Positions 4,486 through 48,320 of a stretch of 48,320 nucleotides of DNA are shown here, piece after piece. The notes beneath the pieces were generated by a model that was given only the letters and a program-made list of their open reading frames with translations, was not told the origin of the DNA and did not search any database. The position numbers were made by a program, and so were the translations under genes. The stretch is from Melioribacteraceae bacterium (GTDB taxonomy: Bacteria > Bacteroidota > Ignavibacteria > Ignavibacteriales > Melioribacteraceae), in assembly GCA_027030245.1 (NCBI GenBank), contig JALVFE010000002.1, forward strand, positions 1 through 48,320, given 5' to 3'. Numbering within the stretch: the stretch's first letter is position 1; the number at the start of each line of letters is the position of its first letter.

Positions 4486-5043
4486 ATGAAAGGACAAATT
4501 ATATACATAATAATATTATTGTTATTGCTTGGCAGTCTTACGGATATATTTCCTCAATATGCAATAAACAAAAGCGTTACGGGCAACGGAAGTAGTTTTA
4601 TGCAAAACGGCAGCCAAGTAGTTAATGGTACGCTTGGGCAAACACTAATTGGCATGAATACGAATTCAACACAACAAAATCATATCGGGTTTTGGTATCA
4701 AGTGAATTCTGTTGTTACAGCTGTAGAAAATGAATTTGATAATTTGCCAACTGAATTTAGATTATACCAAAACTACCCTAACCCATTTAACCCGACAACA
4801 ACAATAGAATATTCAATCCCAACTTCCTCCCCTTTGGCAAAGGGGAGGACCGAGGAGGGGTTCGTAACTTTGAAAATTTACGATGTGCTGGGAAGAGAAG
4901 TTGCAACCCTTGTAAATAAAAAACAATCACCCGGCATTTATGAGGTAACATTTGATGCAAGTAACTTACCAAGCGGAGTTTATATTTACAAAATACAAGC
5001 CGGTTCTTTTACGCAAAGCAGAAAACTTTTATTGATGAAATAA
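4486..5043 (+). CDS. Small secreted protein with T9SS type-A sorting domain carrying a palindromic-repeat insert
   Basis: 185 residues: signal peptide (about 1-24, ending FPQ), a short domain of about 65 residues (NGSQVVNGTLGQTLIG...GFWYQV) seen in many T9SS cargo proteins, then a C-terminal sorting domain (about 90-185) with LYQNYPNPFNPTTTIEYSIP, KIYDVLGREVATLVN, SGVYIYKIQAGSF and a KLLLMK end. Between strands SIPTSS and FVTLKIY there are ten extra residues, PLAKGRTEEG, coded by a palindromic repeat at 4828-4863. It should be exported by Sec, then across the outer membrane by T9SS, and anchored or released. It follows the fibre genes by 19 bases and may be part of that operon. The mature function is unknown. 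Confidence 0.8.
   Translation: MKGQIIYIIILLLLLGSLTDIFPQYAINKSVTGNGSSFMQNGSQVVNGTLGQTLIGMNTNSTQQNHIGFWYQVNSVVTAVENEFDNLPTEFRLYQNYPNPFNPTTTIEYSIPTSSPLAKGRTEEGFVTLKIYDVLGREVATLVNKKQSPGIYEVTFDASNLPSGVYIYKIQAGSFTQSRKLLLMK
4828..4863 (+). repeat. Palindromic repeat element inside a T9SS sorting-domain coding region (copy 1)
   Basis: CCTCCCCTTTG and CAAAGGGGAGG form an 11-bp inverted repeat around a central G, followed by ACCGAGGAGGGG. It lies in frame in the 4486 gene and codes the insert PLAKGRTEEG. Homologous copies are at 6419-6456 and, on the - strand, about 47066-47102. Confidence 0.8.
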
Positions 5044-5058
5044 AATAGAGAAAAGAAA

Positions 5059-6651
5059 ATGGAACCTAAAAAATATTTAATACAGAAAAGACTCATCATA
5101 TTTCTATTGTTGATTCTTTTTAATATTCAGCAGAAAAACTATTCGCAACTAATTCAACCTGAAGATTTGGTTTATAAGGGCGCGTTCTTAACTCCCGAGT
5201 GGGTTTCCGATACGGAATTTTGGGAATACGGAGGAATGGCTATGACATACTACCCGTTGGGCGATCCGGATGGTCCCAATGACGGATATCCGGGTTCAAT
5301 TATTGGCGCCGGATATGACGCTCTTCAATATTTTTCCGAAATAAGTATTCCCGAACCGGTTATTTCTCCTACAAAAAACATAAATGAATTAAATACTGCT
5401 AAAACATTGCAGCCGTTTTCGGATGTAACAGGCGGTCTGTTTGCTCCGCTGCTTGCAGAAATGCCGAGAGTTGGAGTTGCTTATCTACCGAAACAAGCCG
5501 GACAAACTTCGGATAAACTTTACTACTGTTGGGGAGCGCATTTTCAAGAAGCCGGAGAAAGCAGCGATATGCCGTCTCATTCGTGGAGTAATTTGGATTT
5601 ATCAAATCCGCAAACAACCGGTGCTTGGTGGATTGATTGTGCCTCAAATTATTCGGGGAATGATTATATGTTCACAATTCCCAAAGAATGGGCGGATGCA
5701 AATACGCCTGGAATGAGATTGGTTTCGGGAAGATATAGAGATGGCGGTTGGTCAGGATACGGTCCTTCGCTATATGCTTTCGGTCCTTGGTTAGACGGTA
5801 ATCCGCCGCCAAACGGCGATACTCTTACTACAATCACATTATTACAATACACCGACAATTACAACGGCGAACCGGATACTGTTTATCAGTTAAATAATTA
5901 CGCTCATTCCGATGAATGGTCGGGTGGAGCTTGGTTGACTGCCGGAAATAATTCTGCGGTAATTTTTGTTGGTACGAAAGGAATTGGCGATACTTGGTAC
6001 GGCAACGAAAACGGACCTTGTCTCGATTGCGATAACAGAGGCTGGTGGAGTACGGAATTCCAAGGACAGATTCTTTTTTATGATCCGAGAGATTTTGCAA
6101 AAGTCGCTAAAGGAACCATGAAGCCTTACGAACCTCAACCTTATGCCGTAATGAATATTGATAACGTACTTTTTTATATTCGGTCCAGTCAGCAGTGGTA
6201 TCATGTAGGGGCAGCATGTTACGATTCGCAAAATCATTTTCTTTATATTTTTGAAAGCGGAAGATTTGAAGATGATAGAACTTTAGTTCATGTTTGGGAA
6301 GTGAAAGAATCAACAACTGATGTTGAAAGTAACGGAATTCTACCAACCGAATTTAAGTTATACCAGAACTATCCAAATCCGTTTAACCCGACAACCACGA
6401 TAGAATATTCAATCCCAACTTCCTCCCCTTTGGCAAAGAGGAGGACCGAGGAGGGGTTCGTAACTTTGAAAATTTACGATGTACTGGGAAGAGAAGTTGC
6501 AACCCTTGTAAACAAAAAACAATCACCCGGTATTTACAAAGTAACATTTGATGCAAAGTCCGCCGCAGGCGGATTACCAAGCGGGGTTTACATTTATCAA
6601 ATACGCGCCGGTTCTTTTGAGCAAAGCAAAAAACTTTTATTGATGAAATAA
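5059..6651 (+). CDS. Large secreted T9SS cargo protein, unknown function
   Basis: 530 residues: signal peptide (about 1-31, ending NYSQ), a mature domain of about 390 residues rich in W, Y, G and P (for example SGYGPSLYAFGPWLDGNPPPNGD, GPCLDCDNRGWWSTEFQGQILFYDPRDF), and a type-A sorting domain (about 430-530). The repeated GPWxxG, ILFYDP and HVWEVK pieces suggest a beta-propeller or sandwich, but I recognise no enzyme family. The sorting domain carries the same ten-residue palindrome-coded insert as the 4486 gene, here PLAKRRTEEG because one base of the palindrome has changed. It begins 15 bases after the previous stop. Confidence 0.75.
   Translation: MEPKKYLIQKRLIIFLLLILFNIQQKNYSQLIQPEDLVYKGAFLTPEWVSDTEFWEYGGMAMTYYPLGDPDGPNDGYPGSIIGAGYDALQYFSEISIPEPVISPTKNINELNTAKTLQPFSDVTGGLFAPLLAEMPRVGVAYLPKQAGQTSDKLYYCWGAHFQEAGESSDMPSHSWSNLDLSNPQTTGAWWIDCASNYSGNDYMFTIPKEWADANTPGMRLVSGRYRDGGWSGYGPSLYAFGPWLDGNPPPNGDTLTTITLLQYTDNYNGEPDTVYQLNNYAHSDEWSGGAWLTAGNNSAVIFVGTKGIGDTWYGNENGPCLDCDNRGWWSTEFQGQILFYDPRDFAKVAKGTMKPYEPQPYAVMNIDNVLFYIRSSQQWYHVGAACYDSQNHFLYIFESGRFEDDRTLVHVWEVKESTTDVESNGILPTEFKLYQNYPNPFNPTTTIEYSIPTSSPLAKRRTEEGFVTLKIYDVLGREVATLVNKKQSPGIYKVTFDAKSAAGGLPSGVYIYQIRAGSFEQSKKLLLMK
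6419..6456 (+). repeat. Palindromic repeat element inside a T9SS sorting-domain coding region (copy 2)
   Basis: Nearly identical to the copy at 4828-4863 but with AAAGAGGAGG in place of AAAGGGGAGG, so one stem pair is lost and Gly becomes Arg. The reading frame is kept. Confidence 0.8.
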
Positions 6652-6699: not shown

Positions 6700-8172
6700 A
6701 TGAAATCATTAAGATTTTTATCTATAGCTTTGGCAGTTTTAATTTTTATTTATTCAAATTTATTTTCTCAGCAAAAATTTTTAGATAATTTAACTAAATT
6801 ATATTCTACAGAACATTTTTACTTAAAGGGAAAACTTGCTAAAAATTATTCGCAATATAAAGATTTTAATCTGAATAATATCTTTGGATACAGAATAATA
6901 AACCAAATCAAACAAACAAATATTCCCCTCGAATTAGCTACCTCAAAAAGTAAAAGCCCTAGAATAGTTATGAATAAAAATATACTTGATAATAATTTTC
7001 TTTTAAGAGAAAAGATTATGCAAAAATGGGATAGTACTAATTGGACGAATAGTGAAAAATATACTTATATATATGATGAGCATAATAATAATATTGAATT
7101 TCTGTTGGAATTCTGGGTGGAGGATGATTGGTTCAAAGAATCTAGAATTACTTATACTTATGACGAGAATAATAATCTAATAGAATATTTCTATGACGTA
7201 TGGAATAATGACAATTGGGAAAGACACATTAAAATTAATTATACGTATGATGAGAACAACAATAATGTTGAATTAATCAGACAAGACTGGAATGGTGAGG
7301 AATGGCTGAATTATCTAAAAAACACATACACTTATACGGGTAATAACAAAACCATACATTTAAATCAAATATGGGATGGTACTGAATGGGTCAATTGCTA
7401 TAGAATACTATACGAATATAATAACCATAATATTATGATTGAATATCTTCTACAACTATGGGAAGATAGTAATTGGGTGAATAATCTGAAGGAGACCTAC
7501 GCTTATGATGTAAATAATAATAATATGATTGAAAAACTACAGCAAACATGGGAAGATAGTATTTGGGTAAATAAAGGAATGAATTATTACAGTTACAATG
7601 CACATAATAATTTGATTGAGTATCAATACAAAATTTGGGAAAATGGAGAGTGGATAAGTCGTGATATTAGAACTTACATTTATGATGATAATGATAATAT
7701 GATTGAGTATTTACATCAAAAAGTAGAAGGTACTGAATTGAGAAATAATGATAAGAAAAAATACACTTATGATGAGAACAATAACTTGATTAAAGAAATA
7801 TGGCAAAATTGGGAAGGAACAGAATGGTTGAATGATAGGAGGTTTTTATATAGTTATCAGGCGATAACAGATGTAGAGTTCAACAATCAAATCACACTAA
7901 AATTTGAACTTTCTTATAATTATCCAAATCCGTTTAATCCAAGTACGACAATTAGCTATACATTGCCTCAAGATAGCTTTGTTCAATTAATTGTATATAA
8001 CATTCTCGGCAAAGAAGTTGCAACTCTTGTAAACAAAAAACAATCACCCGGTATTTACAAAGTAACATTTGATGCAAAGTCCACCGCAGGCGGATTGCCA
8101 AGCGGAGTTTACTTATACAAACTTCAAGCGGGTAGTTTCGTTCAAACCCGGAAAATGATTTTGATGAAATAA
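6700..8172 (+). CDS. Secreted T9SS cargo protein built of about ten Trp/Tyr/Asn-rich 29-residue repeats
   Basis: 490 residues: signal peptide (about 1-24, ending LFSQ), a charged linker to about 105, then nine to ten repeats of about 29 residues with the pattern W....W......YTYDENNN.IEY (about 107-390). The C-terminal sorting domain (about 400-490) has NYPNPFNPSTTISYTLP, YNILGKEVATLVN, SGVYLYKLQAG and KMILMK. The repeats resemble YD/RHS-type beta-hairpin repeats, though I cannot assign a family firmly. This sorting domain lacks the palindrome insert, yet its last third is almost base-identical to that of the 5059 gene, which suggests mosaic exchange. A hairpin resembling a terminator follows. 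Confidence 0.75.
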   Translation: MKSLRFLSIALAVLIFIYSNLFSQQKFLDNLTKLYSTEHFYLKGKLAKNYSQYKDFNLNNIFGYRIINQIKQTNIPLELATSKSKSPRIVMNKNILDNNFLLREKIMQKWDSTNWTNSEKYTYIYDEHNNNIEFLLEFWVEDDWFKESRITYTYDENNNLIEYFYDVWNNDNWERHIKINYTYDENNNNVELIRQDWNGEEWLNYLKNTYTYTGNNKTIHLNQIWDGTEWVNCYRILYEYNNHNIMIEYLLQLWEDSNWVNNLKETYAYDVNNNNMIEKLQQTWEDSIWVNKGMNYYSYNAHNNLIEYQYKIWENGEWISRDIRTYIYDDNDNMIEYLHQKVEGTELRNNDKKKYTYDENNNLIKEIWQNWEGTEWLNDRRFLYSYQAITDVEFNNQITLKFELSYNYPNPFNPSTTISYTLPQDSFVQLIVYNILGKEVATLVNKKQSPGIYKVTFDAKSTAGGLPSGVYLYKLQAGSFVQTRKMILMK

Positions 8173-30367: not shown

Positions 30368-30491
30368 GGCTGTCTCCAACCCGTCATGCTTTCCCTAATA
30401 CTTTCGGGATCAGCATCTAATATTTTGAAAAAAGCTTAAAAATAGATCCCGAAACAAGTTCGGGATGACGATTTTTAAATTTGAGACAGCC
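30368..30491. repeat. MITE-like element with GGCTGTCTC / GAGACAGCC ends
   Basis: A 124-bp unit bounded by inverted repeats (30368-30376 and 30483-30491; 11 of 12 bases match if extended). Inside is a copy of the dispersed GTCATGCT...ATGAC palindrome family (30383-30470). It lies between dps and the peroxiredoxin gene and carries no gene. Confidence 0.7.
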
Positions 30492-43070: not shown

Positions 43071-43143
43071 TGTCACGCCATACACGTTTGCAAAAAGAGA
43101 TATAGAGTTCGCTTTAGATCCCGAAACCAGTTTGGGATGACAT
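43071..43143. repeat. Dispersed palindrome, copy B
   Basis: Starts TGTCACGCC and ends with AGATCCCGAAACCAGTTTGGG, ATGACA; the second half is a palindromic arm shared with the other copies. Confidence 0.65.
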
Positions 43144-43153
43144 ATTCTTTAAT

Positions 43154-43253
43154 CTGTCATGCTGTCCCGAAAGCTTTCGAGATCAGCATCTGATTAAATC
43201 ATGAGTTCATTTTAAATCCCGAAACGATCCGCCGAAGGCGGACGGGATGACAG
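43154..43253. repeat. Dispersed palindrome, copy C
   Basis: CTGTCAT at the left and ATGACAG at the right form the terminal inverted repeat. Inside are ATCAGCATCTGATT and a GATCCGCCGAAGGCGGAC arm. About 100 bp. Confidence 0.75.
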
Positions 43254-44935: not shown

Positions 44936-45037
44936 TGTCATGCTGTCCACTGCAAGCAGATTATTTCAGCATTTGATTTAAATTACGCGTTCTTTTTAGA
45001 TCCCGAAACGATCCGCCGAAGGCGGACGGGATGACAG
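44936..45037. repeat. Dispersed palindrome, copy D
   Basis: Left end CATGTCATGCTG, right end with GATCCGCCGAAGGCGGAC then ATGACAG. The right arm is base-identical to copy C. Confidence 0.75.
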
Positions 45038-46969: not shown

Positions 46970-47113
46970 TATTGTTACGGTATTAGTTGCGTGTGATTGT
47001 TTTTTATTTACAGGCATTGCGATTTCCCGAGTGAGAATGTTATAGATTTTGAGGGTAACGAACCCCTCCTCAGTCCTCCCCTTTGCCAAAGGGGAGGAAG
47101 CAGGTTTGATTGT
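46970..47113 (-). pseudogene. Decayed T9SS sorting-domain fragment 1
   Basis: On the - strand the frame reads TIKPASSPLAKGRTEEGFVTLKIYNILTREIAMPVNKKQSH, which aligns with the sorting domains at 4486-5043 and 5059-6651 and includes the palindrome-coded insert. The NPFNP entry is lost, DVLG has become NILT, and the domain breaks off after KKQS. No mature protein is attached. Confidence 0.75.
47066..47102 (-). repeat. Palindromic repeat element in T9SS remnant (copy 3)
   Basis: CCTCCCCTTTGCCAAAGGGG-AGG as seen on +, the reverse complement of copy 1, with CCTCAGTCCTCCCC in place of the CCTCGG variant. The stem is intact in this copy although the host gene is dead. Confidence 0.75.
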
Positions 47114-47959: not shown

Positions 47960-48320
47960 CTATTTCATCAAAATCATTTTCTTCGTTTGGGAAAATCCCC
48001 CAGCGGTAAGTTTGTAGAAATATAAACCGGTCGGGAGATTTGCGGCATTAAAGTTAACCGAATAATAGCCCGGCGATTTTGCTTCGTTTACAAGTGTTGC
48101 AACTTCCCTTCCAAGAACATCGTATACAATAAGTTTTACGTCTTTCGTTTCACGTTTTGCATTTCCCGGAATTTCATATTTAATTGTAGTAGTAGGGTTA
48201 AACGGATTAGGGTAGTTTTGGAACAGAATAGCATTTTCCGCTAACGGTTTGTCTACCGATATATTTTGTGTTTTTCCGGTATATTGTTTTCCTATAACAT
48301 TCGTCTCCGATTCTATTGTT
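47960..48320 (-). CDS. C-terminal part of a T9SS cargo protein (5' end outside the window)
   Basis: The - strand frame gives 119 residues to a TAG at 47960-47962 and runs open to the window edge. It has a complete type-A sorting domain: LFQNYPNPFNPTTTIKYEIP, LIVYDVLGREVATLVN, SPGYYSVNFNAANLPTGLYFYKL and KKMILMK. The loop after KYEIP is GNAKRETKD rather than the palindrome-coded insert found elsewhere. The cargo part is not visible, so the function is unknown. Confidence 0.85.
   Translation of the reverse strand, partial: TIESETNVIGKQYTGKTQNISVDKPLAENAILFQNYPNPFNPTTTIKYEIPGNAKRETKDVKLIVYDVLGREVATLVNEAKSPGYYSVNFNAANLPTGLYFYKLTAGGFSQTKKMILMK

Follow-up and report, generated by a model that had tools for sequence, protein, structure and literature searches.

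Dispersed palindromes of bacterial genomes have a described precedent in the REP/REPIN elements and their RAYT proteins: repeats of 20-40 bp with a mark at one end only, some of them in genes, which flank the gene for a small DNA-cutting protein (PMC3733652). The Rickettsia palindromic elements (RPEs) are a second precedent, with several families of palindromes of ~150 bp that lie in frame in apparently working genes (PMC10969869). The domain DUF559 has been linked to Vsr-like proteins (PMC12907096) and assigned to the EDxHD homing family (PMC9403480).

Here we describe F1, a 39-bp element with three copies in the window, by which we mean the whole 48,320-nt stretch of DNA under analysis, from a Melioribacteraceae genome of 3.81 Mb (G000). 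F1 resembles the REP elements in being a dispersed palindrome within the 20-40 bp class: there are 26 copies in G000 at up to three mismatches (none for the pattern read backwards, which served as control), and 44 copies at up to one mismatch in 14 of the other 78 genomes of the family, making 15 of 79 genomes with G000 included. It differs from the REP/RAYT systems in that the copy at 4825-4863 has neither GTAG nor CGTC at an end, in that its partner gene encodes DUF559, with a Vsr/EDxHD fold, where RAYT systems have a Y1 transposase, and in that those of its copies which lie in genes are nearly confined to a single loop of a single domain family. With the RPEs, compared here by description only, it shares in-frame palindromes and the existence of several families; F1 differs in its length of 39 bp, in standing beside a nuclease gene at some loci, and in not occurring in many unrelated genes, although DUF559 with palindromes does enter unrelated genes. 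The original prediction had named the RPEs as precedent; the closest machinery seems instead to be a DUF559-nuclease element, plus one of REP/RAYT type for a few other inserts. EDxHD enzymes such as I-Bth0305I are alike in the sequence of the catalytic domain, in fold, and in that a conserved gene has its site filled in some cases and empty in others; unlike the EDxHD homing endonucleases, the DUF559 insert reads as an extra domain, matches no intein model and has palindromic flanks. Small dispersed repeats of cyanobacteria, reportedly described by Elhai and colleagues in 2008 as very small mobile repeats, also lie in and between genes.

Palindromes in the loops of T9SS sorting domains

The F1 copies of the window (Table 1) read TCCTCCCCTTTGGCAAAGGGGAGG-ACCGAGGAGGGGTTC or a one-base variant thereof. 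The same palindromic element had been noted in frame in two genes, at 4486 and 5059, as well as in a dead copy; all three were recovered, each with an extent of 39 bp, and the ten residues that it was said to add appear as a lengthening of the loop from 5 to 15 residues. One arm, CCTCCCCTTTG, occurs six times in the window at up to one mismatch, against a shuffle mean of 0.43, and none of 100 shuffles reached six. The sorting domains of both genes pass the TIGR04183 and PF18962 cut-offs, and PF18962 is above its cut-off in all three window proteins scanned. The gene at 6700, previously described as having nothing between the strands, does have an empty F1 loop (YTLPQDSFVQL); its second in-frame palindrome, at the other loop, had gone unmentioned. 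The inserted segment is probably a surface loop between two beta strands, a placement that draws on the strand pattern and on knowledge of the family because the predicted structure of the domain was poor (mean pLDDT 51), with the loop not placeable in space. An exact 27-mer search of a contig collection gave no match.

Table 1. Palindromic inserts and sorting domains of the window.
Feature	Position (strand)	Context	Remarks
F1	4825..4863 (+)	in frame, sorting domain of gene 4486-5043	palindrome of 25 bp (4825-4849), then G-rich tail ending at 4863; encodes SSPLAKGRTEEGF
T9SS sorting domain (TIGR04183/PF18962) of gene 4486	4774..5031 (+)		profile match
F1, one mismatch in an arm	6421..6459 (+)	in frame, sorting domain of gene 5059-6651	encodes SSPLAKRRTEEGF
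T9SS sorting domain of gene 5059	6370..6639 (+)		profile match
Second palindrome, TCCGCCGCAGGCGGA	6559..6573 (+)	in frame, another loop of the gene 5059 sorting domain	KSAAGG
T9SS sorting domain of gene 6700	7921..8160 (+)		F1 loop empty, second loop filled
Second palindrome, TCCACCGCAGGCGGA	8080..8094 (+)	in frame, sorting domain of gene 6700	KSTAGG
F1	47060..47098 (-)	remnant of a broken sorting domain	
Sorting domain	47972..48214 (-)		F1 loop occupied by a different, non-palindromic insert, PGNAKRETKD

The F1-bearing remnant of a broken sorting domain is seemingly present twice in the genome, at 47075 of the window and at C26:74480 (L003), one of them near a contig end. Elsewhere in the window, the gene at 556 has 42-nt tandem repeats (STAMGxGTTASGxx; 1397-1900) of surface-protein-like character, and a further dispersed inverted repeat, TAGATCCCGAAACNAGTTYGGGATGAC, lies at 30443-30469 and 43115-43141.

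Each of the 26 copies in G000 was read: 21 lie in one sorting-domain loop and in the same frame, two in remnants and three elsewhere. Sorting domains above the TIGR04183 cut-off number 107 in this genome, four of them in the window, and most are without F1; since only 21 of the 107 carry it, the objection that the family had this loop ancestrally does not hold. The loop could be delimited in 87 domains, the remaining 20 being dropped where the loop pattern did not fit, and was short (5-6 residues) in 48 and long (at least 9) in 39. The long loops contain F1 (21), F2 (6; peptide LNPPFxKGG, DNA CCCCCCTTTnnnAAAGGGGGG), F3 (1; CCCTCTCCCTCGGGGAGAGGG), F4 (1), F5 (2; GTAGGGGACGAAAATTTTCGTCCC), F6 (1; GTAGGGTCAAAGCATGCTTTGACCCTA) and other inserts (7). 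A palindrome score of at least 8 is reached by 31 of the 39 long loops, the other eight lying below it, versus 0 of 87 control windows of the same domains; all six frames are free of stops in the window copy and in 13 of the 21 F1 loops, versus again 0 of 87. One sorting-domain loop has repeatedly received several unrelated palindromes in frame. In the orthologue of gene 5059 in G003, whose cargo is 77% identical, this loop is empty, so that an empty orthologous site does exist, and the orthologue in G005 has another insert at the F1 position.

The second palindrome, TCCRCCGCAGGCGGA, is shared by genes 5059 and 6700, and as TCCGCCGCAGGCGGA, TCCRCCGNAGGCGGA and variants it lies in frame in at least nine sorting domains, in a loop other than that of F1. 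On contig C33, two adjacent and closely similar sorting domains differ at this second loop in that one has this 15-mer palindrome in place of AAT. Exact TCCGCCGNAGGCGGA sites number 24 in G000; the TCCRCCGNAGGCGGA palindrome is also seen elsewhere in the window, at 43228-43242 and 45012-45026.

Three inserts of the F1 loop, two of F5 and one of F6, carry GTAG. These palindromes (C20:53767, C40:124809 and C10:8868) have the look of RAYT-type REP elements and are similar to one at L297 372-400, which is separated by 1.1 kb from a RAYT-like (Y1_Tnp) gene. There are five Y1_Tnp matches in G000, and no F1 arm was found in the 1.5-kb flanks of any of the five genes. With F1 and the GTAG-tagged F5 and F6 in the same place, the loop seems to capture mobile palindromes of two kinds or more.

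F1 in related genomes and palindromes around DUF559 genes

All 44 copies in the relatives were read. The palindrome is not confined to the sorting domain, 35 of these copies and three of the 26 in G000 lying outside it, and 33 of the 44 fall outside every open frame accepted by our filter. Eight copies (in G006, G035 and G047) are in frame in the same sorting-domain loop and one more is in a truncated domain (L214); the sorting-domain copies read, 21 in G000 and these eight, keep one frame. At L211, in G035, which belongs to another genus, F1 is reversed yet in frame in the loop. Open frames outside sorting domains account for L083, where F1 is fused to a DUF559 frame, and for L080 and L205, which are ORFs of doubtful reality. 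The loop inserts show differing left ends, and other genera carry different inserts; other repeats in the loops of relatives include AGACGTTGCATGCAACGTCT and GTAGAGACGTTCCATGGAACGTCTTTAC. A second loop survey of 29 loci, mostly from relatives with one from G000, yielded 22 parsed loops, of which 19 had at least nine residues; by score, six of these 19 are palindromic and 13 are not. The loop of L268 is 36 residues long (ARSEATRQS...RSARNDSEIN) and is perhaps another dispersed repeat. The proposal of a mobile, coding-compatible repeat in a tolerant loop of the sorting domain is thus supported by the dispersed copies, the single frame and the empty orthologue.

By coordinates, 10 of the 44 copies in relatives have a DUF559 gene no more than 240 bp away, against a background of ~0.03% of the sequence by a rough estimate assuming 93 genes and 900 bp for each. 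A single copy of the 26 in G000 adjoins a DUF559 gene (L006, ~35 bp), and the other flank of that gene has a related but different palindrome. F1 also takes part in doublets (L008 ~960-1040, L020 ~985-1070), in which two different palindromes are arranged as tail-palindrome-spacer-palindrome-tail with outward G-rich tails and no DUF559 between them; these are REPIN-like, REPINs being doublets of REP elements.

Within the family, 30 genomes contributed one DUF559 locus each; at 26 of these loci a G+C-rich palindrome is at most 160 bp away, and four, including an HsdR locus (L090), have none at the threshold. A broader set comprised the best 80 of 574 confirmed DUF559 loci from named genomes, and hence those nearest to the query; they are mostly from Bacteroidota, together with Calditrichaeota, Komeilibacteria, Acidobacteria, Pseudanabaena, Phycisphaerae and others. 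In 63 of these best 80 of 574 a palindrome lies within 250 bp of DUF559 (28 on both sides, 17 upstream only, 18 downstream only) and in 17 there is none at the thresholds used, whereas 11 of 72 other gaps have one (Fisher p ~1e-15). The density of palindromes at the best 80 is 2.83/kb near DUF559, 0.62/kb in other non-coding sequence and 0.05/kb inside reading frames. A pyrimidine 5' arm, as in F1, is present in 90 of the 112 palindromes near DUF559 in this best-80 set. An initial expression for the tail matched 4 outward and 9 inward among 101 near palindromes with a pyrimidine arm; pattern and distance were then widened from the printed sequences, and with the pattern so chosen after inspection an F1-type G-rich tail is found on 71 of the 101 (best 80 of 574 loci), against 3.2% of shuffled flanks. 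At several loci near-identical units with matching outer sequence stand on both flanks of DUF559, inverted at L126 and L129 and direct at L121 and L180.

A DUF559 profile matched 3hrl, a Neisseria endonuclease-like structure (E 2.4e-30), and 3r3p, the homing endonuclease I-Bth0305I (E 4.4e-4); a structural model (pLDDT 88) retrieved by Foldseek 3hrl, 3r3p (E 4.2e-5) and Vsr 1cw0 (E 4.4e-3). Homology of the catalytic domain and the modelled fold point to DUF559 being an EDxHD/Vsr-like nuclease, with cleavage predicted. In the parts of the open-access literature on DUF559 (PF04480) that were covered, no tie of the domain to palindromes was found.

DUF559 in frame within conserved genes

Methionine synthase (MetH) holds a stop-free, in-frame DUF559 in six genomes of the family (G017, G022, G023, G054, G055 and G065), and DUF559 is found at the same MetH linker in a Raineya MAG. 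Palindromes flank the inserted DUF559 in five of the six family genomes, namely the five measured (G017, G022, G023, G054 and G065). A MetH fragment has a strong match in 73 of the 79 family genomes and any match in 75; G011 and G047, which match only short proteins of ~220 aa, are left out of the 73, and genomes outside those read were judged by open-frame length alone, several frames ending at contig ends. The linker could be parsed at 25 of 32 MetH loci, with seven unparsed: 16 linkers are empty (36-38 residues), seven hold an insert and the other two are slightly lengthened by extra residues, which at L224 (G021) may be the scar of element ends without DUF559. Three genera (g7, g8 and g32) have both filled and empty members. 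In both L093 and L161, Pfam places DUF559 between domains of MetH, with its relative MTES_1575 a further, weak match in L093.

Other enzymes are entered as well. DUF559 lies in frame with palindromes in Eco57I-type enzymes (on both sides at L138 and L171, downstream only at L155), in the MmeI enzyme of L177, and ahead of a SpoU methylase at L118, there with palindromes downstream only; in HsdR (L090) it is in frame and no palindrome is above threshold. Several repeat-like peptides are seen around DUF559 at L138, L155, L171 and L177. No intein or splicing model matched MetH of L093 or L161 or the other DUF559-bearing enzymes (Pfam, E at most 1e-5, a level at which more diverged splicing domains could escape).

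Origin and spread of the inserts

The reading we favour, with a probability of roughly 0.6, is that F1 is a terminal unit of a small, mobile element of palindromic type built around a DUF559 gene, and that such units persist in the tolerant T9SS loop and spread by recombination between paralogues. The proposed family of elements would be REP-like and would depend on a nuclease resembling Vsr and I-Bth0305I, with DUF559 providing mobilisation. The unit would be a palindrome with one pyrimidine and one purine arm, CCTCCCCTTT-nnn-AAAGGGGAGG, and with the G-rich tail GGWGGGGTT after it; the complete element would have units around the DUF559 gene, and solo units and doublets would be its numerous short forms. 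DUF559 would cut at or near the units, which repair would then copy. The unit has few stop codons, and a copy whose length is a multiple of three would therefore, once inside a gene, simply be translated; the six open frames of the window copy and of most F1 loops help to explain this coding compatibility. The T9SS sorting domains, 107 in G000, would offer a large family of targets whose loop between two beta strands is tolerant and presumably neutral for secretion, and recombination between paralogous domains would multiply the inserts.

The tree of the sorting domains, built without the loop on 213 columns, is weak. On it the domains with a filled loop group together, needing 5 changes of state where shuffling gives 28.7 on average, and those with F1 do so to some degree (14 changes, shuffled mean 19.0), in keeping with a single ancestral insertion multiplied only by gene or domain duplication. 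However, at least four of the F1 changes are forced by well-supported forks, the scatter of F2 is no different from chance (6 rows, 6 changes), the loop is shared by unrelated families, and the reversed copy in G035, the different left ends and the different inserts of other genera all speak against that history, which is largely contradicted and in our estimation very improbable. Repeated insertion with loop exchange among paralogues is the simplest reading, the exchange accounting for part of the spread of F1. The opposite extreme, of 21 copies as 21 insertions, was also considered and is ruled out by the tree, because loops have been shuffled among paralogues. Selection might retain any insert if a longer loop were useful, whether for recognition by the secretion machinery or as an mRNA hairpin, and this would suit the weakly supported tree group with nearly all inserts, where the loop is long in 37 of 40 domains, as well as the 19 long loops among 22 parsed in the second survey, mostly in relatives; yet the inserts have no obvious common residue pattern, empty domains exist (the gene at 6700, the G003 orthologue) and F1 is also found outside reading frames, as in the 33 copies in relatives mentioned above, and we consider a benefit of this kind rather unlikely.

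For the movement of the palindromes there are two further candidates. DUF559 could home into palindromes that were there before it, the palindrome being its target and spreading otherwise, by hairpin-mediated recombination or through a transposase in trans. In favour of this are the kinship of DUF559 with a homing nuclease, a class of enzyme whose genes insert at the sites it targets, and the excess of palindromes over DUF559 genes, 26 to 2 in G000; the near-identical flanking units with matching outer sequence (L121, L126, L129, L180), however, are like element ends, and the 16 empty MetH linkers, at 36-38 residues, have no extra sequence, leaving homing a possible explanation that we would not expect to prevail. 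Alternatively, the palindromes might be REP elements of the usual sort, with RAYT (Y1) transposases to move them, as the five Y1_Tnp matches and the resemblance of the GTAG-bearing F5 and F6 inserts to a palindrome 1.1 kb from such a gene would suggest; F1, lacking both GTAG and any arm near those five genes, makes this improbable.

We give even odds to the view that DUF559 with flanking tailed palindromes is an unrecognised class of mobile DNA which crosses phyla, combines a protein of homing-nuclease fold with palindromic ends poor in stops, enters conserved genes in frame without splicing, as an additional domain (MetH, Eco57I-type and MmeI enzymes), may leave in-frame scars, and sheds solo units that fill loops, the one in the T9SS signal among them. 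GC-rich palindromes translated within proteins are common in environmental genomes, and the element described here would be a candidate machine for such dispersed palindromes read as peptides. In-frame insertion of mobile DNA becomes testable in one protein loop with more than 100 natural sister domains in a single genome, G000, and for DUF559 a role in a mobile element is suggested, as against the Vsr-like repair or homing nuclease of the published descriptions cited above.
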